A DNA stretch of 30,307 nt from IMG/VR virus record IMGVR_UViG_3300030389_000697, positions 1-30,307 of that record; one strand, given 5' to 3'. The position numbers and the translations under genes were made by a program. Below the pieces are notes generated by a model. The model was not told where the DNA came from. It searched no databases and worked only from the letters and a program-made list of their open reading frames with translations. Of the stretch, positions 176 to 29,995 are shown piece by piece. Numbering within the stretch: position 1 is the stretch's first letter; each line of letters opens with the position of its first letter. This DNA comes from a virus.

Positions 176-1084
176 ATGGCAATTTCTAGAGCACAATTAG
201 CGAAAGAATTAGAACCAGGATTAAACGCCCTTTTCGGTTTAGAGTACAACAGGTACGAAAACGAGCACGCTGAAATCTTTGATACTGAAACTTCTGACAG
301 AGCGTTTGAAGAAGAAGTATTACTAGTAGGTTTCGGAAATGCTCCAACTAAAGCTGAAGGGCAAGGCGTAAATTTTGATACAGCAATGGAGTCATACACT
401 GCTAGATACTCTCACGAAACAATTGCATTAGCATTTGCTTTGACTGAAGAAGCTATCGAAGATAATTTGTATGACAAACTTGGTGCCAGATATACTAAAG
501 CATTAGCTAGAAGTATGGCTCACACTAAGCAAGTTAAAGCTGCTTCTGTATTAAACAACGCTTTTAACTCAAGCTTTACTGGTGGTGATGGTAAGGAGCT
601 TTGTGCTACTGATCACCCATTAGCGAGCGGCGGAACTTTTGCAAACGAACCTAGCACTGATGCTGATTTGAACGAAACTTCATTAGAAGCGGCGTTGATC
701 GATATTGCTAACTTTAAAGATGACCGAGACATGATCTTGGCTCTTCAAGGTATGAAATTAATCGTTCCTACAAATCTACAGTTCGTTGCTGATAGACTGT
801 TACAAACACCTGGTAGAGTTGGAACTGCTGATAACGATATTAACGCTATTAGAAACATGGGAATGTTACCTAATGGTTATGTTGTAAATCACTTCTTAAC
901 AGATACAGACGCGTTCTTCATCAAAACTGATTGCCCAGATGGGTTTAAACATTTTGAAAGAACTCCTTTGTCAACTGCAATGGAAGGTGATTTTGATACT
1001 GGTAATATGCGTTTCAAGGCTAGAGAAAGATATTCATTTGGTTTCTCTAACCCAAGAGCAGTTTACGGATCTAAAGGAGCTTAA
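176..1084 (+). CDS. Major capsid protein (HK97-fold type)
   Basis: A 302-aa protein of the usual length for a small major capsid protein. It has an acidic alpha-helical N-terminal region, a central segment around residues 80-130 (LAFALTEEAIEDNLYDKLGA, then a helix with many Ala and Lys), and a beta-rich C-terminal part ending in FSNPRAVYGSKGA. The pattern recalls capsid proteins of the Mu gpT/HK97-fold families. The start has AGAGG 10 nt upstream. A strong terminator and a new leader follow, so it may end a highly expressed head transcript. The capsid call rests on length, composition, position and family resemblance; exact family membership was not tested. Confidence 0.8.
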   Translation: MAISRAQLAKELEPGLNALFGLEYNRYENEHAEIFDTETSDRAFEEEVLLVGFGNAPTKAEGQGVNFDTAMESYTARYSHETIALAFALTEEAIEDNLYDKLGARYTKALARSMAHTKQVKAASVLNNAFNSSFTGGDGKELCATDHPLASGGTFANEPSTDADLNETSLEAALIDIANFKDDRDMILALQGMKLIVPTNLQFVADRLLQTPGRVGTADNDINAIRNMGMLPNGYVVNHFLTDTDAFFIKTDCPDGFKHFERTPLSTAMEGDFDTGNMRFKARERYSFGFSNPRAVYGSKGA

Positions 1085-1759: not shown

Positions 1760-2035
1760 ATGGCAGTTTCTGATGTTGTAACAGCTTCTGTAACTTCAAC
1801 TGGCGACATGACTACTAGACGTTCAAGACTTCGTGGTTTTGTAGTTTCAGGTGGAGCTTCAGATGGCACAGTTACTTTTAAAAATACTAGTTCAGGAGCA
1901 ACACTATTGGTGTTGCCCGTGAACGCTGACACTACAGAAACATTAAATATTCCAGATAATGGCGTATTGTTTTCAAGTGGCATACATGCAACTTTATCTA
2001 ATATAGATAGAGTAACTATATTCTTTACAGGATAA
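1760..2035 (+). CDS. Small beta-rich structural protein
   Basis: 91 aa, starting 12 nt after the previous stop with an AGGAG site. It contains VTASVTSTGDMTTRRSRLRG and then short beta-strand-like stretches (GTVTFKNTSSGATLLVLPV). Small proteins of this type in phage head operons are often head decoration or head-completion factors, but nothing diagnostic is seen. It is co-directional and almost contiguous with its neighbours, so it is probably co-transcribed with the 160-aa gene. Confidence 0.6.
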   Translation: MAVSDVVTASVTSTGDMTTRRSRLRGFVVSGGASDGTVTFKNTSSGATLLVLPVNADTTETLNIPDNGVLFSSGIHATLSNIDRVTIFFTG

Positions 2036-2048
2036 AGAGGAGTATTAA

Positions 2049-2270
2049 ATGGTTTATAAAAGAACTAAAGGCTATGGCAAAGGTGGCATGGCTAAAAAGA
2101 CTAAAGGCTATCGTGGTGGTGGCATGATGAAAAAAACCAAAGGTTATCGTGGCGGTGGTGCAATGAAAAAAACCAAAGGCTACAGAGCTGGAGGAAAAGC
2201 CACCAAAGGGTATAGCAAAGGCGGTAAAGCAACTAAAGGTTACAGAAGAGGCGGCGCTGCTAAAAAATAA
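2049..2270 (+). CDS. Highly basic KTKGYR-repeat protein
   Basis: 73 aa made almost wholly of a tandem unit of about 8-13 residues with core TKGY(R/G/S), followed by a GG-rich linker (six copies). There are no acidic residues, and the estimated net charge is above +20. It has a good AGAGGAG site. Low-complexity basic proteins with TKGY repeats are known to me from marine phage genomes, without function. The composition fits binding to nucleic acid, for example DNA condensation in the head. The position among head genes suggests a packaged protein. Function is inference. Confidence 0.7.
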   Translation: MVYKRTKGYGKGGMAKKTKGYRGGGMMKKTKGYRGGGAMKKTKGYRAGGKATKGYSKGGKATKGYRRGGAAKK

Positions 2271-6206: not shown

Positions 6207-7403
6207 ATGGCTATTACCTTAAATGATAGGGTAAAAGAGACCACCACTTCTACTGGTACAGGAACGATAAATTTAGCTGGTGCCGAAACTGGCTTTGAAT
6301 CTTTTGTAACAGGTATTGGTAATGGAGTCCAAACTTATTACGCTATCGTACATCAAGCCGCAGATGAATTTGAGATTGGTATAGGAACAGTTACCGATGG
6401 CTCTCCAGACACTTTAAGCAGAACTTCAATTATTAGTAGTACTAACTCAGACTCTGCTGTTAATTTTTCTGCGGGAACTAAAGATGTATTTTGTACTGTA
6501 CCAGCAGAAAGAATGATTTTTGCTGATAATGGTCCTATCGTAAAAATACCTTTTGAAGCTACTGTAGGTACAGGTACCGCAGACCCACTTGGTTTAGTAT
6601 ATTCAGGATTAAGATTTGCGGTAAATGAACAAGATGCATCTAAAACAGGCTCCATATCAATAAATGGAGGTAATGCTGCAAGAATAGATTTTGGTGTAGG
6701 TGGAACTGCACTTCTTAGAGTCTACAATGATGCCTCAAACTTTACAGAATTTAAAAGAACAACCAACCATCCAATTGTTTTTGCTGTAAATAATGCAGAA
6801 ACTGCAAGATTTATGAGCACAGAATTAAAACTTGCCTCTGGCAAGAAACTTACAGGTGGTGACTCAAGTGGAACAGGTACAGATTTTACAATTCAATCAG
6901 ACCACAGAATAGAGTTTATATCGGCTAGTAAAGGAACTGTTATATTTAAAGACCAAGGAACTGCTTATGCCTTACTTGAAAGACCTACAGGCACAAACGA
7001 TCTTGATATACAAAATCCTATTTCAGACGGAGATATAACTTTCGTTGGTAATGATGGCGGCAGCACAATAACTGCCCTTACTCTTGACATGTCTGAAGCA
7101 GGTGCTGCAACTTTTAACGACAATGTTACAGCTTTCTCAGATGAAAGACTGAAAGATAATATTGAAACTATAGAAAATGGTTTAGATAAAGTAGAACAAC
7201 TTAGAGGTGTGACTTACACCAGAGATGAAAAAGAAAGTATTGGTGTTATAGCTCAAGAAGTAGAAAAGATTCTGCCAGAAATTGTATTAACTGCTGATGA
7301 TGAAATGGGTACTAAATCTGTTGATTACAGCAGACTAACCGCAGTATTAATAGAAGCTGTAAAAGATTTATCAGCTAGAGTAAAAGAATTGGAAGATAAA
7401 TAA
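6207..7403 (+). CDS. Tail fibre/spike with C-terminal S74 intramolecular chaperone
   Basis: 398 aa. The N-terminal 100 residues (TLNDRVKETTTSTGTGTINL) look like a fibre-attachment domain, and the middle is a beta-rich shaft. Residues about 311-398 are a typical peptidase S74 chaperone: SDERLKDNI with the nucleophile Ser311 and Lys316, then ESIGVIAQEVEKILPEIV and VDYSRLTAVLIEAVKDL, ending in a trimeric coiled coil. In this family the domain guides trimer folding and then cuts itself off at the Ser. This is probably a receptor-binding fibre. Confidence 0.85.
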   Translation: MAITLNDRVKETTTSTGTGTINLAGAETGFESFVTGIGNGVQTYYAIVHQAADEFEIGIGTVTDGSPDTLSRTSIISSTNSDSAVNFSAGTKDVFCTVPAERMIFADNGPIVKIPFEATVGTGTADPLGLVYSGLRFAVNEQDASKTGSISINGGNAARIDFGVGGTALLRVYNDASNFTEFKRTTNHPIVFAVNNAETARFMSTELKLASGKKLTGGDSSGTGTDFTIQSDHRIEFISASKGTVIFKDQGTAYALLERPTGTNDLDIQNPISDGDITFVGNDGGSTITALTLDMSEAGAATFNDNVTAFSDERLKDNIETIENGLDKVEQLRGVTYTRDEKESIGVIAQEVEKILPEIVLTADDEMGTKSVDYSRLTAVLIEAVKDLSARVKELEDK

Positions 7404-7768
7404 TGGCAATAGATTATACCTGGGATGTAAAAACTGTAGATGTTAAAGAGATAGATGGTAAAGCCGATACTGTTTTTAATGTTCATTGGGTGCTTATTGG
7501 AACTGACAATGATCGTTTAATTAAAGATGAACTAGGAAATGACAAAGCAGTTATTGAAAGATCTTCTGGCACAATAGCCTTAGATACTTCTGATTTATCA
7601 AATTTTATTCCTTTTTCAGATTTAACAACAAGCAAAGTACAAGGTTGGGTTGAAACTGCTTTAAATAAAATAAATAAAAATGAGGTTCAAACTCAAAAAG
7701 ATTCTATTGCTTTGGCTATAGAAAATATAATAAATCCGCCTTTTCAAACTAAAACTTTAGATAAATAA
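7403..7768 (+). CDS. Small tail-fibre-associated protein
   Basis: 121 aa; its ATG overlaps the TAA of the S74 fibre by one base (TAATG), and its own stop overlaps the next start in the same way. It begins AIDYTWDVKTVDVKEIDGKA, then VFNVHWVLIGTDND, and ends in helices (VQGWVETALNKINKNEVQTQ). Proteins of this kind lie next to fibre genes in marine phages and may be fibre assembly factors. The tight coupling supports joint expression; the role is not proven. Confidence 0.6.
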   Translation: MAIDYTWDVKTVDVKEIDGKADTVFNVHWVLIGTDNDRLIKDELGNDKAVIERSSGTIALDTSDLSNFIPFSDLTTSKVQGWVETALNKINKNEVQTQKDSIALAIENIINPPFQTKTLDK

Positions 7769-23100: not shown

Positions 23101-24224
23101 GATCCTTTGCAGCTCCTTGGGACAAGACAGCTACGTTAGTGCCAACTGGTACTGATAAGAATGGCAACATAACTCAAATGATGAATTTAAGTTATACAAA
23201 TCCTTATGATTATTTATCAAGACCTTTTTCTAGATTGATAGCAGAAGCTGAAGAAGGAGAAGCTAAGGGAGAAGGGTTAGTAAATAGATACTCACAAGGA
23301 TTTATGTATGCTTTAGGAGAACTAACGCAACCTTTTGGTACGCCTTCGATTGCTACTAAATTATTATTTGAAACTGTTAGTGGTGAAACAGAAACTGGTA
23401 GAAGACTTTACTCTGCTAGTGACACTTTTGGTGATAAAGCTAGTAAAGCATTTGTTCATAATTTACAAGGTATGGCCCCACCAATTTTACCTTTTGATAT
23501 TACCTCTGACCCGGCTGGTGGAGTTTTAGGAGTAAGCACATCGTTAAAAGATTTTCCAACAGCAGTATTTAATAGTACTGGCTTGATGGGTGACGACAGA
23601 TTAATTAACAGAAGAGGAAACAGAATAGATCCAGCTGAAACTTTAGTGCAAGGATTTAGCGGTTTAAAAATTATTAAACCACAAATAGGCAGAACTTTAA
23701 GATATAGAGGTTTTGAAACTAACGATGTAATTAGAGCGGCAGCTAATGAATTTAACAGAGTCGCTAGATCTACTAATACTAGAGAAGCAGAAGACTTTAC
23801 CAAAGCTTACATAGAATCTAATGAAGCTAGATATAGAGGTATGAGAGATCTTTATTTAGCAATAGAAGATGCAAGAGAACTAGGATTAAATGATTCTGAA
23901 ATATTAAAAGAACTTAAAACAGCTAAAGTCGCTAATGCCGATTATGTTATGGCTGGCTTGTTTAAACCTTCAGAACTTAGTAAAGAAGTTATTACCGAAT
24001 CTCTTAGACAAGATTACAATAAAGCTAGAAACTTATTACCAATTACAGAAATAGGTGTGGCTCAAACTAGATTAACTGGACAAAGATTAGAAGGAGGTTT
24101 TACTTCTCCAGATGAAATTCTTCAAGCAACTCAACAAAGAAGATTTAATCAAACACCGACAGTGGCTCCTCAACCAAGCGCCTTACGCCAACAAGAACTT
24201 AATAAACTTCTGGGAATAGATTAA
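20127..24224 (+). CDS. Large virion (ejection-type) protein
   Basis: 1365 aa, the largest gene in the window. The N-terminal part has a basic segment (AAAKRKLKSRKSGDSFLGEV) followed by Gly-rich hydrophobic stretches (GIGAGLVGIPQGITTLGSTI) that could act on membranes. The rest is mostly helical with Lys, Glu and Ala. Around residues 1030-1180 a region rich in Pro/Gly/Phe (RLIAEAEEGEAKGEG) is more structured. I see no transglycosylase or protease motif. Size, composition and last place in the late block fit a T7 gp16-like ejection protein; this is inference. Confidence 0.6.
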   Translation: MPIIDIDGVRVFVEEGTPNPEAAAKRKLKSRKSGDSFLGEVGRGIGAGLVGIPQGITTLGSTIVDGIFDTDLTKSLNQYFEEFKPETNSTAGHIAQYITQFGIPGVGVASALSKAGKTAQILSAGAVDAAVATDDVETLSDLFFDEINDQDRLAAINGSEAAASRLLERLAVFGETAGIVGALPIALKGLATTGRATAEVAGVAAAPLVKAVASSPVTTAVTNRLMPSTGQTFTSVDDAIKERSDSFMDVIKDKVTFQGALRSDDIAQLKEAQVQETRRQIAQVEQDFGEVITTIKKAGVSGTLNATDQDNLAKAIGDYYSPLTRLSYENKEILKDPVARRAAAEKIQNRALEIIKSYEDGVGNKIDYKALGIPDNQKISTLLEQQRDIVNLNSETIAGFAGKFDNEFIPTEYGNILDANYGLYTNRTYKAMIDNGYVIDPEQRAEAIKELEKAFAQSGVPRENLRAHAEQAFDNFLNGKADAFQFETPKGGVNVLAGAVRKDILKGRTLDSLPEVRKALGEVAGYLEEDWSKSLANTQLQAFQTVKKQANLVGRVKLFDDLNTLNKDAELYNVKPFIFDEQQITKTGTDNIKPGETFTKDGKEFIKFDDKAGPLAGKVTSKRFYDALLDSTNTYVNSVADALGTPYKTFLSLKSAAQYNKTVLSPSAQIRNPTGGILMTLAAGNIPGATSLAKAFSKVFNRFNKDPNKNTFAIEPDKDLIASETVKLRKLGIVDDSAAAMTGEIEDLAKFAEQSSLVSAATNSKVIKGFRNSGFNKGARKAYTGTDSVIRVVNFYQERDTLLRALLKHGDSPIPVTSVKNKMALGGTSVSGNQLLGAKNVTKLRKAFETKPIKKGNIEKFLDDNLGNQTTKVGEKDVRLKDIFMDFLDEEGAQLAKNHYQNYNRVGDIVGDLAKLPIGNFAAFPSEIIRTMGNIGYRAAQELASGNPELQKKGMKRAVSALTVTTAFPAAMVELGTKLTGADQDQIDAYKRSFAAPWDKTATLVPTGTDKNGNITQMMNLSYTNPYDYLSRPFSRLIAEAEEGEAKGEGLVNRYSQGFMYALGELTQPFGTPSIATKLLFETVSGETETGRRLYSASDTFGDKASKAFVHNLQGMAPPILPFDITSDPAGGVLGVSTSLKDFPTAVFNSTGLMGDDRLINRRGNRIDPAETLVQGFSGLKIIKPQIGRTLRYRGFETNDVIRAAANEFNRVARSTNTREAEDFTKAYIESNEARYRGMRDLYLAIEDARELGLNDSEILKELKTAKVANADYVMAGLFKPSELSKEVITESLRQDYNKARNLLPITEIGVAQTRLTGQRLEGGFTSPDEILQATQQRRFNQTPTVAPQPSALRQQELNKLLGID

Positions 24225-24400
24225 ATACCAAATTTAATATGATCGGCACTACCATTTTTCTCAGCTATTTCTATTTCTTTAATAGCTTTTTCAACCAACC
24301 ATTCAACCGTGTTAGCACGGGTCCTGTGAGTTAATGATGCAAGCTTGCCTAGTTTTTTGTGAGTCTCTTTGTTTACTCCGATGGTTACGTGGGTTGCCAT
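24221..24400 (-). CDS. Ribbon-helix-helix (Arc/MetJ-like) regulator
   Basis: A 59-aa frame on the minus strand, ATG at 24398-24400, overlapping the end of the 1365-aa gene tail to tail by 4 nt. THVTIGVNKETHKKLGKLA is a typical RHH strand and first helix; TRANTVEWLVEKAIKEIE fits the second helix. A strong AGGAG lies 7 nt upstream of its ATG. RHH proteins bind DNA as dimers. It faces the divergent operon at 24461 across a 60-nt gap, the usual layout for a regulator of that promoter. The call is good; the operator is inferred. Confidence 0.75.
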   Translation of the reverse strand: MATHVTIGVNKETHKKLGKLASLTHRTRANTVEWLVEKAIKEIEIAEKNGSADHIKFGI

Positions 24401-24449
24401 TTAGCTTCTCCTGGTATGTTAATTCTTTCTTAAAATATATAAAAAATTG

Positions 24450-24462
24450 TATAATAAATTAT
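24450..24462 (+). promoter_or_regulatory. TATAAT promoter with palindrome, leaderless start
   Basis: A perfect -10 box TATAAT (24450-24455) stands 5 nt before the ATG of the DUF1064 gene, which has no SD. The inverted repeat ATAAT-AA-ATTAT (24451-24462) overlaps the -10 box and start codon and resembles the palindromes at 3985 and 10535. A -35 (TTTCTT-like at about 24427) is weak. On the other strand, TATATAT (about 24435-24441) may serve the RHH gene. Repression by the RHH protein is a guess. Confidence 0.5.
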
Positions 24463-24793
24463 GGGCTATAACAAGTACGGAGCCATAAAAGTGAAACTAG
24501 ATGGTATCACATTTGATAGCAAATTAGAGGCCGCCAGATATAAATTCTTAAAAGAATTAGAATCTGCTGGCGCAGTGTCAGACATAGAAGTTCACCCACA
24601 ATTTCCATGTTTTGTTGAAGGTAAAAAGATCTGCACTTATATAGCAGACTTTAAATATAAAAATGTAAAAGGAGAAGAAGTCATAGAAGATACTAAGGGA
24701 GTATTGACTGATGTCTTTAAATTAAAAAAGAAATTAGTAGAAGCAATATACCCGGACGTAACCATAGAAGTAATTCAGTCGCCCAGGGCCTAA
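24461..24793 (+). CDS. DUF1064 PD-(D/E)XK nuclease-like
   Basis: 110 aa, the usual size for DUF1064. It starts with the family hallmark NKYGAIKVKLDGITFDSKLE (Glu23 in SKLEA), then YIADFKY with Asp63, and VIEDTKG with Asp77-x-Lys79 as catalytic core. Family members are thought to cut branched DNA or act like Holliday-junction resolvases. It starts the only plus-strand operon of the early region. The start is supported by the family N-terminus (NKY near residue 4) and the -10 box just upstream. No Shine-Dalgarno is present. Confidence 0.8.
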   Translation: MGYNKYGAIKVKLDGITFDSKLEAARYKFLKELESAGAVSDIEVHPQFPCFVEGKKICTYIADFKYKNVKGEEVIEDTKGVLTDVFKLKKKLVEAIYPDVTIEVIQSPRA

Positions 24794-25284
24794 TGACTCA
24801 AAAAACCAGAACTTGTACGCTTTGCAAGAAAAGGCGGAAGATTAAATTTTTTGAAGCTAGAGAACAAACTGGTGGTGGCACAACCTATCGCGGTCTTTGT
24901 AAAAATTGTCATGTCATAGATAGAAACAGAAAACGATCATCAAGTTATAAAAGCTTTTTAAATTTAATTCACAATCAACTAAGACATACTAGAGTTAGCA
25001 AAAATCCAGAGAAGGATTGGGAGATAACGCCAGAAGATTTGATAGAGATATGGGAAGAACAAGAGGGTCTTTGTGCTTTATCTGGCGTATTAATGACACA
25101 CTATCGAGATGGCAGTGGTAAAAAAGACCTCAACGTAACCATAGATAGAATAGATCCAGAAGAATGGTACGTCAGATACAATATTCAATTGGTTTGTCAG
25201 CGTGCCAACATCATCAAACATACCTTGAGCGAGGACATGTTGCTCTGGTGGTGTGAAAATATTGTAAGAAATAAAAAGAAATAA
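24793..25284 (+). CDS. Zinc-finger plus HNH-type endonuclease
   Basis: 163 aa; its start overlaps the DUF1064 stop by one base (TAATG). The N-terminal zinc knuckle is CTLCKK (C8, C11) and LCKNCH (C36, C39). The C-terminal half has LNVTIDRIDP, then RYNIQLVCQRANIIKHTL, the pattern of HNH-like nucleases (here Asp118, Asn130, Asn139, Lys142). The canonical His before the Asp is replaced by Ile-Asp, as in many marine phage versions. It may cut DNA, possibly as part of host or own DNA processing. Free-standing, not an intron endonuclease in context. Confidence 0.7.
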   Translation: MTQKTRTCTLCKKRRKIKFFEAREQTGGGTTYRGLCKNCHVIDRNRKRSSSYKSFLNLIHNQLRHTRVSKNPEKDWEITPEDLIEIWEEQEGLCALSGVLMTHYRDGSGKKDLNVTIDRIDPEEWYVRYNIQLVCQRANIIKHTLSEDMLLWWCENIVRNKKK

Positions 25285-25293
25285 AAAGTTTTT

Positions 25294-25322
25294 TTTATAT
25301 GCAAAATATTTTTGTATATAAT
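25294..25322 (+). promoter_or_regulatory. Operator-like palindrome with TATAAT promoter
   Basis: A 23-bp imperfect palindrome at 25297-25319, arms ATAT(G)CAAAA and TTTTG(T)ATAT around a TAT centre, has one mismatched pair (25301/25315). It overlaps TATAAT at 25317-25322 and leads into the ATG at 25329, which again lies 6 nt after the -10. The -35 area (TTTATA 25294-25299) is weak. Such a palindrome across the core promoter is the normal site of a dimeric repressor. Which protein binds is unknown. Confidence 0.55.
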
Positions 25323-25328
25323 CCGCGC

Positions 25329-25427
25329 ATGAATTTTAAGAATATACTCACCGGGAGTGCTGGGTATGTGATTAGTGTCAGCTTCGCCTTATATATGCTA
25401 AACATATATTTAGCGATCTACACCTAA
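25329..25427 (+). CDS. 32-aa single-TM peptide
   Basis: A short frame from the ATG after the TATAAT, ending 9 nt before the convergent minus-strand gene. The product has a short basic N-terminus and one 20-residue membrane helix (GYVISVSFALYMLNIYLAIY), then ends YT. There is no SD; the start would be leaderless. The coding RNA could also fold into two competing hairpins (see findings). Composition fits a small toxin-like or membrane peptide, but no function is claimed. Confidence 0.45.
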   Translation: MNFKNILTGSAGYVISVSFALYMLNIYLAIYT

Positions 25428-25436
25428 GCCAGTGCT

Positions 25437-25694
25437 TTATTTATAGATCTGTTTTATTTTATAGCCTTTCTCAGAGTTATTAAGGTTTATCATCTTGCGC
25501 TCTAATCTTGGTAATGATTTCCAGAACACTGGAGAGTGTTGGTAATCATATAAACCACAGACAGTACAACGACCGTTTTCCATACTGGTAGGCCAGTGGC
25601 AGGCGTTGATGCAAGGATAATCAGCGAGACTAGTAGTTTCGCCTCTAAGACTAGCTATGTTTTTAAATGTATCTAATTTAAATATTTTAGCCAT
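25437..25694 (-). CDS. Cys-rich (zinc-binding-like) 85-aa protein
   Basis: The last gene of the minus-strand operon. The N-terminal half is ordinary (KIFKLDTFKNIASLRGETTS); residues 28-46 carry CINAC and CTVCGL, four Cys that can bind zinc. The C-terminal part is basic. It has a good AGAGG site 6 nt upstream of the ATG and its own promoter-like box (minus-strand TATAAT at 25727-25722, TTGCAA at 25752-25747 with a 19-nt spacer). The role is unknown; a regulator or small DNA-binding protein is possible. Confidence 0.6.
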   Translation of the reverse strand: MAKIFKLDTFKNIASLRGETTSLADYPCINACHWPTSMENGRCTVCGLYDYQHSPVFWKSLPRLERKMINLNNSEKGYKIKQIYK

Positions 25695-28515: not shown

Positions 28516-29012
28516 TAGTGTTTGGTTTCGTTACGACTTTCTAATTGATTTTTAATTTTTTCAATCAATTCTTCTGTGTCAAGGTTTTCAATATCTTTAG
28601 GATCTAACTCGTAATCTTTGGGCACAAGACCTTGCTCTTTACCATAATCAATCAAAGACTCCCAGTTAGTATTATCATTAATTAAAGACTCCCAATCAGT
28701 ATTAGCGCCCCCTGCTATATTACCTAGCATATCTGCCTGGAAGAAAACTTCTTTTCTAGTCATGCCTTTTTCTTTAGCAATATCATTAATAACTCTACCC
28801 CAAGATGCACCGATCAACATGGTTGCTTCATTGGTACTATGTTCCAATACGTCGTAAGTGACGCAGCAAACATAAGTTAATAATACTTCTAATAATTTAT
28901 GTGGACTTTTGATTTCTCCCATTCTTCTGTTGAATGACATCATGTGCATTCGTAATTCTGTTAATAAGTCCTTCTTGGATATCTTTTCCAAATCTATTTT
29001 GTCGTCTTTCAT
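28515..29012 (-). CDS. 165-aa hypothetical protein of the replication operon
   Basis: Mostly helical; a Lys/Glu-rich start (KDDKIDLEKISKKDLLTELR), a hydrophobic helix with two Cys (LLEVLLTYVCCVTYDVLE), and an acidic C-terminal half with two copies of a TDWESLI/TNWESLI motif (about residues 105-122). The start has GAAGG about 8 nt upstream. It overlaps the 88-aa gene by 116 nt in another frame. An internal ATG at about residue 22 or 24 would shorten the overlap. No family is recognised. Confidence 0.6.
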   Translation of the reverse strand: MKDDKIDLEKISKKDLLTELRMHMMSFNRRMGEIKSPHKLLEVLLTYVCCVTYDVLEHSTNEATMLIGASWGRVINDIAKEKGMTRKEVFFQADMLGNIAGGANTDWESLINDNTNWESLIDYGKEQGLVPKDYELDPKDIENLDTEELIEKIKNQLESRNETKH

Positions 29013-29163
29013 ATAGCACCTTCGCTCTCTTTAATCTGTTTATCGAAACAACACATGCCGCAACTTCATCAAATAATTCAACTGGCAGTATGTGATTGTT
29101 CACCTCATATATTTTTGCTAACAACTTCTCAGAGTTAGCGATTAATTTTTTATCATCAATCAT
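28897..29163 (-). CDS. 88-aa hypothetical helical protein
   Basis: ATG at 29163 with TAGGAAA 6 nt upstream. The N-terminal 50 residues are a regular helix pattern (LIANSEKLLAKIYEVNNHIL, then VAACVVSINRLKRAKVL), a likely coiled coil. The last 38 residues overlap the start of the 165-aa gene in the +1 frame and look less regular (ERRQNRFGKDIQEGL). It is the first gene after the stem-loop array, which would form its leader. Frame continuity to the 165-aa gene by a frameshift is possible. Confidence 0.5.
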   Translation of the reverse strand: MIDDKKLIANSEKLLAKIYEVNNHILPVELFDEVAACVVSINRLKRAKVLYERRQNRFGKDIQEGLINRITNAHDVIQQKNGRNQKST

Positions 29164-29251
29164 ATTTGTTTCCTAATGCGAAGACTAAGTAGTTTTATGC
29201 CGGGTAAACAAAAATAATAAAAACCCGGTATCGGCTCACTACTTAGACTTC

Positions 29252-29265
29252 GACTTTTTTGGAGA
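29252..29265 (+). repeat. GACTTTTTTGGAGA repeat copy 1 after stem A
   Basis: A 14-nt direct repeat, identical at 29383-29396, exactly 131 nt apart. Each copy starts at the last base of the right arm of a stem (A and C). Read on the plus strand, stem plus T6 looks like a terminator; read on the minus strand, the A6 tract precedes the stem and does not. Confidence 0.8.
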
Positions 29266-29382
29266 CTGAGCCGAACTCTGTGCCTAGCTAAAGTATTTAA
29301 TTTTCAAAGGACTCTAGCTAGGACTTTAAATCCTGTGCCTACCGAGCTGTAACGCCGCTATTCATAACTAATAGCTCGGTAG

Positions 29383-29396
29383 GACTTTTTTGGAGA
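29383..29396 (+). terminator. Plus-strand terminator-like element, stem C plus T6 (repeat copy 2)
   Basis: Stem C (11 bp, 29338-29383) is followed by ACTTTTTT on the plus strand. This is a plausible intrinsic terminator against plus-strand (antisense) transcription, although all known genes here are on the minus strand. The 24-nt loop is large, which weakens the call. Confidence 0.4.
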
Positions 29397-29405
29397 TGAC
29401 TCCAG

Positions 29406-29882
29406 TTATTTATCCCAAGGCATAGCATCATCTTCTTCTTGTAAAGGTTTTGCCGTAGGCGCCTCCTCTTCAGATGAAGATCCCTTTGCTAAGTAATCTT
29501 GTATCTTATTACTGTCCTCGTACCCATTTGTTCCAGGTTCAATTTTGATCTTGGCTTGGAAAGGATTGTTAATCATTTCGTCCAAAACCTCAGCATTGAA
29601 AGTGACATCTGGACTTAAACCTAACGCTTTACGCCAAGCTTTAATTTTCCTAGCAGTCACAGTCACAGCATTGCCTTCAAGAGTAAAATACTCCCAAAGT
29701 TTTCTATTGGCATGGCTTGGACCGAGTACTTGAAACTCGATTTCAACCATTGCATTCCCAGCTTTTGATGTTCTCTTCTCCCATTTGTTAGCGACTAATT
29801 CATAGTTGCCAGCAGGCATAGGTTTAAAGTCATCTTCTTGATCAGGCACTTCGCCTAACATAATTTCAAAGTCATCACTCAT
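29406..29882 (-). CDS. DUF669-like single-strand DNA-binding protein
   Basis: 158 aa from the ATG at 29882 (residue 13 of the longest frame). A Shine-Dalgarno AAGGAG lies upstream, and the previous gene's stop overlaps this ATG (ATGA); both favour it over the ATG at 29918. The core has PMPAGNYELVANKWEKRTS, then AMVEIEFQVLGPSHANRKLW as in DUF669, and an acidic tail ending EEDDAMPWDK, as in SSB proteins. The family is a phage SSB that often pairs with the Sak4 recombinase. Its partner gene lies just upstream. Confidence 0.75.
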   Translation of the reverse strand: MSDDFEIMLGEVPDQEDDFKPMPAGNYELVANKWEKRTSKAGNAMVEIEFQVLGPSHANRKLWEYFTLEGNAVTVTARKIKAWRKALGLSPDVTFNAEVLDEMINNPFQAKIKIEPGTNGYEDSNKIQDYLAKGSSSEEEAPTAKPLQEEDDAMPWDK

Positions 29883-29995
29883 GATAAATTTAACTCCTTG
29901 CGAAGACATGAAGTACAACAGAGAAGACCTTTGTATTTATACCCACCGTCTAAAATTTCTTCTCCACAGTGGTCACACAAAATCTCCTCTGGCAC
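29879..29995 (-). CDS. 38-aa zinc-ribbon micro-protein
   Basis: GTG at 29995 with GGAGG 6 nt upstream. The product has two Cys pairs, CDHC (7, 10) and CTSC (27, 30), preceded by another Cys (26), a compact zinc ribbon. It starts 2 nt after the Sak4-like stop, and its TGA overlaps the DUF669 start (ATGA). The strong SD, exact packing and metal motif support a real gene. It may help DNA or protein binding in the recombination complex. Confidence 0.65.
   Translation of the reverse strand: MPEEILCDHCGEEILDGGYKYKGLLCCTSCLRKELNLS

Follow-up and report, generated by a model that had tools for sequence, protein, structure and literature searches.

A row of structured RNA cassettes behind a phage single-strand DNA-binding protein gene, with kin in a second marine phage group

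The REP/BIME elements of enterobacteria are transcribed intergenic palindromes that form mosaics of variable number and protect the mRNA upstream of them. The PeSL elements of phage T4, which Arbiol and colleagues reportedly described in 2010, are said to be mobile intergenic cassettes in which an early promoter is paired with a stem-loop. In Clostridium, intergenic stem-loops without U-tracts protect processed upstream transcripts and set the stoichiometry of an operon (PMC4423207). Phage PhiTE carries tandem RNA pseudoknots, the pseudo-ToxI repeats, whose number changes by recombination (PMC3475682), and gp32 of phage T4 binds a pseudoknot in the leader of gene 32, located 5′ of the gene (PMC3014915).

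The locus described here resembles each of these in part. Like the PeSL elements, it is made of stem-loop-bearing intergenic phage cassettes that are shuffled between related phages, but it holds pseudoknots together with hairpins, sits at one locus and recurs in unrelated phages. Unlike REP/BIME, it has no GTAG/GGAG foot, occupies one locus only, includes pseudoknots and is found in phages. The selective RNA processing and stabilisation (SRPS) stem-loops of the Clostridium cip-cel operon are alike in being intergenic, without a U-tract and behind highly transcribed operon genes (PMC4423207); those, however, are not modular, pseudoknotted or exchanged between genomes. Pseudo-ToxI consists of identical 36-nt repeats that mimic ToxI, whereas our modules are diverse, measure 35-100 nt and have no known toxin. 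As with the T4 gene 32 leader, an RNA pseudoknot is tied to a phage SSB gene, but the array lies 3′ of that gene and, in the second phage group, adjoins no SSB gene.

The window, that is, the whole stretch of 30,307 nt that was analysed (IMG/VR record IMGVR_UViG_3300030389_000697), comes from a phage whose capsid resembles those of HTVC023P and DSL-LC04. The parts of the locus are as follows.

29406..29918, minus strand: upstream gene, DUF669 / phage single-strand DNA-binding protein (PHROG SSB)
29164..29405, minus strand: whole intercistronic array, 242 nt from the SSB stop to the next start
29391..29405, minus strand: small hairpin GGAG-UCAU-CUCC, then A6, directly after the SSB stop
29335..29391, minus strand: hairpin module H1 with an A6 lead, AAAAAAGUCCUACCGAGCU...AGCUCGGUAGGCAC, 11-bp stem
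29328..29334, minus strand: linker AGGAUUU between H1 and H2 (consensus CACAGRAUUU/C)
29280..29327, minus strand: hairpin module H2, AAAGUCCUAGCUAGAG...CUUUAGCUAGGCAC, with the foot of H1 and another stem
29177..29275, minus strand: pseudoknot module K (77.3 bits with covariance model R1, the window copy being in the training set)
28897..29163, minus strand: downstream gene, 88 aa, no family, with the RBS AGGAAAC at 29168-29174

No ORF of 60 aa or more lies inside 29164-29405, and the 88-aa downstream protein has no PHROG or Pfam match. The gap folds with a z of -6.5 (minus strand) and -6.0 (plus strand), none of 200 dinucleotide shuffles folded as low, and it ranks first on both strands among 806 strand-windows, each of 225 nt, in a fold scan that covers the window. 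An earlier note on this DNA had described at least five inverted repeats and a direct repeat here, between an SSB-like gene and the next gene and with all flanking genes on the minus strand, at a density found nowhere else in the window. The flanks are as it said (the next gene encodes 88 aa and has its own RBS), the claim about density agrees with the top rank of this fold on both strands, and a repeat search recovered every element named: an 11-bp perfect stem (29338-29348/29373-29383), an 8-bp perfect stem (29231-29238/29267-29274) and a 15-nt arm pair with one mismatch (29179-29193/29238-29252), besides which the gap holds a 12-nt inverted pair (92%) and a 9-nt pair. The inverted repeats are thus present, but the 8-bp stem and the 15-nt pair interlock as the two stems of a single pseudoknot and do not form separate hairpins. 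The direct repeat, the 14-mer GACTTTTTTGGAGA at 29252 and 29383 (spacing 131 nt), is incidental as a signal: most relatives have a different spacer at that place, the matches listed in viral contigs are unrelated single ones, and the 14-mer recurs widely by chance. The strongest fold outside the array, at 1876-2100 (plus strand), covers the end of a 91-aa gene (1760-2035) and precedes a short gene encoding KKTKGYRGGG-type repeats.

We show here that the gap is a row of structured RNA cassettes in the sense of the flanking genes, the main kinds being a hairpin, H, and an H-type pseudoknot, K. The array in the window has three modules on the minus strand, two hairpins (H1 and H2) and one K. The two hairpins have a foot in common, AAGUCCUA...UAGGCAC, where a bulged C sits above GU paired with AC, and the base AAGU-C...G-CA is common to H and K cassettes. 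This foot is specific, since 34 distinct stems (one of them a chance match) occur with AAGT...CA flanks, against 0-3 with permuted flanks. Cassettes are usually joined by the linker CACAGAAUU; the type of linker found between H1 and H2 also joins modules in both phage groups, and a short linker separates H2 from K. Read in sense, the stems are followed by GCACAGRAUU or GCAUUAGG, and a U-tract after them is absent. The small hairpin behind the stop codon reads GGG-UCAUCU-CCC in relatives.

Module K ends just ahead of the RBS of the downstream gene, and is built from the following strands.

29267..29275, minus strand: A1, UUCGGCUCA, 5′ side of stem 1
29238..29252, minus strand: B1, CGAAGUCUAAGUAGU, 5′ side of stem 2
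29231..29238, minus strand: A2, UGAGCCGA, 3′ side of stem 1
29200..29229, minus strand: inner hairpin P3, loop 3, variable among relatives
29179..29193, minus strand: B2, ACUACUUAGUCUUCG, 3′ side of stem 2

In stem 1, UUCGGCUC of A1 pairs with GAGCCGA of A2, and in stem 2 the whole of B1 pairs with B2. The first U of A2 overlaps the last base of B1, each base using one partner, and the small inner hairpin sits between A2 and B2. Covariation was assessed in 31 aligned K sequences, among which stem 2 has two-sided changes at 9 of its 14 pairs, with wobble intermediates. In the MAFFT register, 97.5% of the cells of both stems are paired, as against 40% at most with slid partners, and eight pairs change on both sides, as against a maximum of two. 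After correction of the register, 98% of the cells of stem 2 pair and nine of its pairs change on both sides; when the inferred substitutions were re-placed on the tree, none of the 300 runs did as well. Stem 1 likewise has 98% of its cells paired, with tree nulls as good in 0 of 300, and shows G-C to A-U and U-A to C-G exchanges; its two-sided changes (2 pairs) are not significant when taken alone, as the tree null reaches them in 139 of 300 runs. Before the pseudoknot closes, an alternative A1:B1 hairpin of 6 bp is possible in all 31 sequences. An HDV-like ribozyme was considered and rejected, as only 0-1 nt separate B1 from A2 in each of the 31, so that P3 cannot be placed as such a ribozyme requires; the only conserved unpaired core consists of AAGU and CA, whereas such a ribozyme has a conserved catalytic C.

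A DNA hairpin would give G-U and A-C cells in equal number, so the excess of G-U in the sense strand argues for RNA: G-U cells number 23 and A-C cells 2 in K, against 26 and 3 in H, where the stem-extension rule slightly favours G-U. The modules stand in sense orientation in group A (the window phage and its relatives), in group B and in a further contig, L197. The functional strand is the minus strand, which is the sense of the flanking genes. The structured RNA proposed earlier is therefore backed by covariation, for which the note had called, as well as by the sense-strand wobbles and the sense orientation.

With no U-tract behind them in sense, the stems are not terminators, and the plus-strand T6 is a side effect. 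The earlier note had pointed out that T6 tracts follow the stems only on the plus strand, and intrinsic terminators against antisense transcription would indeed look like this, the A6 before the H1 and K stems being a T6 after the stem on the plus strand. This hint of a terminator does not generalise: only H1 and K of group A have the T6, and the hairpins of group B have AAAAA at most before the foot and no long T-run on either side, which largely refutes the idea. The intrinsic terminator scan gave one weak site, no more than chance, and we consider antisense terminators extremely improbable. Downstream of the array no terminator was identified, nor was there a promoter above chance near the array or on the minus strand in the gap, in a scan that covers sigma-70-like sites only. 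These scans also bear on processive antitermination or pausing (put/EAR-like), by which nascent cassettes would modify RNA polymerase so that the early operon past the SSB gene gets read. A structured RNA in a long early operon, in sense orientation and with a 6-bp A1:B1 alternative in 31 of 31 K modules that would allow a co-transcriptional folding switch, is what one might look for. Such sites, however, usually lie near promoters or ahead of terminators, which is not what the scans returned, and neither the multiplicity nor the variety of the modules would be expected; we rate this reading as very unlikely.

The earlier suggestion of an origin finds no support. The GC skew, a check that the note had proposed, changes sign at 24000-25500, where the structural (plus) and early (minus) genes converge 4-5 kb away from the array, and it turns only there; moreover, a pseudoknot cannot form in duplex DNA.

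Group A comprises 24 IMG/VR contigs with the same SSB and a homologous gap. Their SSB proteins are 84-99% identical to that of the window, while the number and kind of modules vary, from 1 to 4 per gap. H1 comes first in every intact relative, followed by nothing (L011 and nine identical contigs), K (L010), H-K (L001, L003), H-K-H (L005), K-H (L004) or H-H (L023). The minimal array in both groups is a single H (L011, L150), and the position is always between the stop codon and the RBS. Of 20 records, 16 have a single array per contig by the K covariance model, which has no match elsewhere in them (minus-strand matches of the model are the same places read in reverse); the contigs searched are fragments, so the count of one locus holds within contigs, and arrays outside them are possible.

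Group B was found through a pattern for the hairpin and its foot, and has the same kinds of module behind a different gene. This upstream gene encodes a protein of 250-270 aa with an all-helical model, for which we obtained no fold match and no sequence match, and a 52-aa gene lies downstream of the array. The capsid and terminase of these phages resemble those of KPP25/phiR18 and phiA008. In group B, 20 distinct arrays measure 91-484 nt; they contain 1-6 modules, shuffled in their order and mostly joined by GCAC-AGAATT. The further modules of this group include a second K type with a CGAGTCCTGAAAGAG stem, a hairpin class T with a 16-17-bp stem, and the following.

L246 4615-4700: module P, a further pseudoknot class

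In P (CCCCGAC...), the pair GGAAAGTC/GACTTTCC becomes GAGAGTC/GACTCTC in L229, a compensatory change. Behind the 52-aa gene of L155, L164, L159, L168 and L209 lies another long non-coding stretch, GC-rich and hairpin-rich, which reads GTGCTCGTACAAAC...GTTTGTACCTTCGC. The occurrence of the same modules behind an all-helical protein of unknown family weakens the earlier suggestion that the array is a site for SSB.

L197 is likely to be a third context, in an unrelated phage: one hairpin of H type, with the same foot, occupies 714-767 (minus strand), between a major head protein gene and the next gene, where about 0.002 matches are expected by chance, as estimated from about 37 chance matches. 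A candidate match in L201 was not significant. Outside groups A and B, the wider patterns AAGTCC...GGCACAGAATT and AAGTCGA...TCGCACAGAATT gave only chance matches, and the family therefore looks narrow. The strict hairpin pattern had one chance match, without a stem, in 84,980 prokaryote genomes, and plasmids and GenBank phages had no match to the module patterns.

Between groups A and B, array DNA is 78-88% identical by BLASTN, loops included. The arrays of L005 and L228 align over 93 nt at 88%, those of L023 and L155 over 47 nt at 89% and those of L001 and L164 over 101 nt at 85%; L001 and L003 have the loop and stem of H2 in common with L164 of group B. Loops common to both groups mean that modules have passed from one phage to another. 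For neither upstream gene is there a homologue in the opposite group, and few proteins are common to the two apart from tail, lysis-region and endonuclease genes. Judging by these sequence comparisons, two unrelated marine phage groups have evidently exchanged cassettes. We regard RNA structure and module mobility as well supported.

Other parts of the genome also have counterparts in group B. The 3′ end of a tail protein gene (6207-7403) is, at 7021-7405, 85% identical in DNA to a group B contig, and such common tail-gene ends suggest that the two groups may have a common host and have recently exchanged DNA. Group B homologues at about 46% exist for 24793-25284 (Endonuclease VII/HNH-like) and 25437-25694 (85 aa, Cys-rich).

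The breakpoints of cassettes fall at the boundary between ...GGCACAG and AATT. Shared linkers would provide homology for phage recombination machinery, and cassettes would be swapped, duplicated or lost when related phages co-infect one host. Movement could instead take place at the level of DNA, with single-stranded hairpins carried by a hairpin-recognising recombinase (attC-like, REP/RAYT-like or Y1 transposase) and the RNA fold secondary. Conserved feet and linker around variable interiors, the sharp breakpoints and the transfer between unrelated phages would all suit such an enzyme. We nevertheless think it decidedly unlikely: the wobble asymmetry and uniform sense orientation point to RNA, the pseudoknot cannot form in duplex DNA, there is one locus per genome and not a scatter of copies, the attC-type GTTRRRY ends are absent, and the shuffling needs no dedicated enzyme, since homologous recombination via the shared linker explains it.

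As to function, we infer that the array is a cis-acting intercistronic structure, REP- or SRPS-like and assembled by recombination, that protects or processes the upstream mRNA, and we give this about an even chance of being right. Hairpins at this place in phages of like gene order, the sense orientation, a site between stop codon and RBS and the lack of a U-tract all fit a 3′ barrier and processing element. The cassettes would work in cis within a polycistronic early message: standing 2-60 nt behind the stop codon, a hairpin or pseudoknot would shield the upstream coding segment from 3′-5′ exonucleases, and cleavage in the A/U-rich linkers would split that segment from the downstream one. 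More of the upstream product, here SSB, would result, and the array would govern how much upstream mRNA there is relative to downstream mRNA, as the stem-loops of Clostridium do (PMC4423207). Where the array stands, distant relatives with this gene order have one strong hairpin of a different kind. In Pseudoalteromonas phage H40/1 it lies behind DUF669, again with no U-tract, and is possibly a functional counterpart of the array; it is a long perfect two-part hairpin (L345 1990-2047) between the DUF669 and Cas4-like genes. Alteromonas phage XX1924 also has a different strong hairpin behind DUF669, and in L247 a terminator stands behind a 46%-identical relative of the group B upstream gene. A common need for high dosage in both groups is a guess.

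Several points speak against this cis role. A plain hairpin would suffice for 3′ protection, and one array locus per genome (the contigs being fragments) is unlike a general mRNA stabiliser. The conserved bulged-C foot and the elaborate pseudoknots suggest recognition by some factor, and the foot together with the 6-bp A1:B1 pairing may leave room for a recognised foot (a decoy or nuclease site) or for a folding switch. A decoy or antitoxin-like RNA would have its cassettes processed to free small RNAs that bind to a host factor (an RNA-binding protein, a nuclease or a type III toxin) and block it, with cassette number and cassette kind shifting through an arms race with hosts, as for the pseudo-ToxI repeats of phage PhiTE. 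Tandem phage pseudoknots whose copy number varies by recombination match the pseudo-ToxI pattern (PMC3475682), conserved cassette ends around variable stems would fit one protein that recognises the ends, and the single locus per genome agrees. The cassettes, however, are heterogeneous (35-100 nt) and not identical 36-nt repeats, simple hairpins dominate to the point that the minimal array is a single H, and behind the array lies neither a toxin-like gene nor a terminator, the downstream protein having no PHROG match. On balance we find a decoy fairly unlikely. A more specific version, in which one locus holds RNA cassettes with a protein-recognised foot (AAGU-C/G-C-AC, bulged C), the released small RNAs neutralise host defence or RNA-decay factors, and unrelated phages of one marine host trade the cassettes, is in our judgement a little less probable still.

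The earlier note had recognised no known RNA class, and this holds for Rfam 15: at permissive E-values, the best matches of the window and one group B array were far below gathering scores and at chance level. No tRNA or tmRNA was detected, and a weak match to permuted tmRNA (E 0.19), which falls largely on the downstream gene, was rejected as far below the gathering score. Integron attC is excluded by cassette ends of the form GTCCTA...TAGGCAC and the absence of the R box GTTRRRY, and REP/BIME by a foot AAGTC...GCAC in place of GTAG/GGAG and by one locus per contig searched. For a type III antitoxin (ToxI/CptI/TenpI) or a mimic, the modules differ too much in kind, length (35-100 nt) and stem sequence; only K is a pseudoknotted unit, H being plain hairpins, and no toxin gene follows behind a downstream terminator, a feature with which a mimic could dispense. 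The array is an intergenic cassette shuffled among phage genomes, as T4 PeSL is, but its minus strand has no sigma-70-like promoter above chance coupled to a stem-loop. Since at least one defining feature is lacking for each of PeSL, ToxI mimics, REP, attC, HDV-like ribozymes and terminators, we conclude that this is an undescribed, narrow family of structured-RNA cassettes, with no match in Rfam, GenBank phages or plasmids and no clear match to the strict pattern in prokaryote genomes. The earlier interpretation was right about a structured RNA, and did not notice that the array is modular, that it contains a pseudoknot or that its modules have passed between phages.

The array thus represents an undescribed structured-RNA family with strong covariation, and tightly packed phages of two unrelated marine groups devote up to about 480 nt at one spot to non-coding, pseudoknot-rich RNA cassettes, which they keep and trade. 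RNA structures, in other words, can evolve as cassettes that viruses interchange. Should the cis role hold, the cassettes would give phages a modular way to tune gene dosage inside an operon; if a decoy role holds, they would be a portable set of RNA counter-defences.
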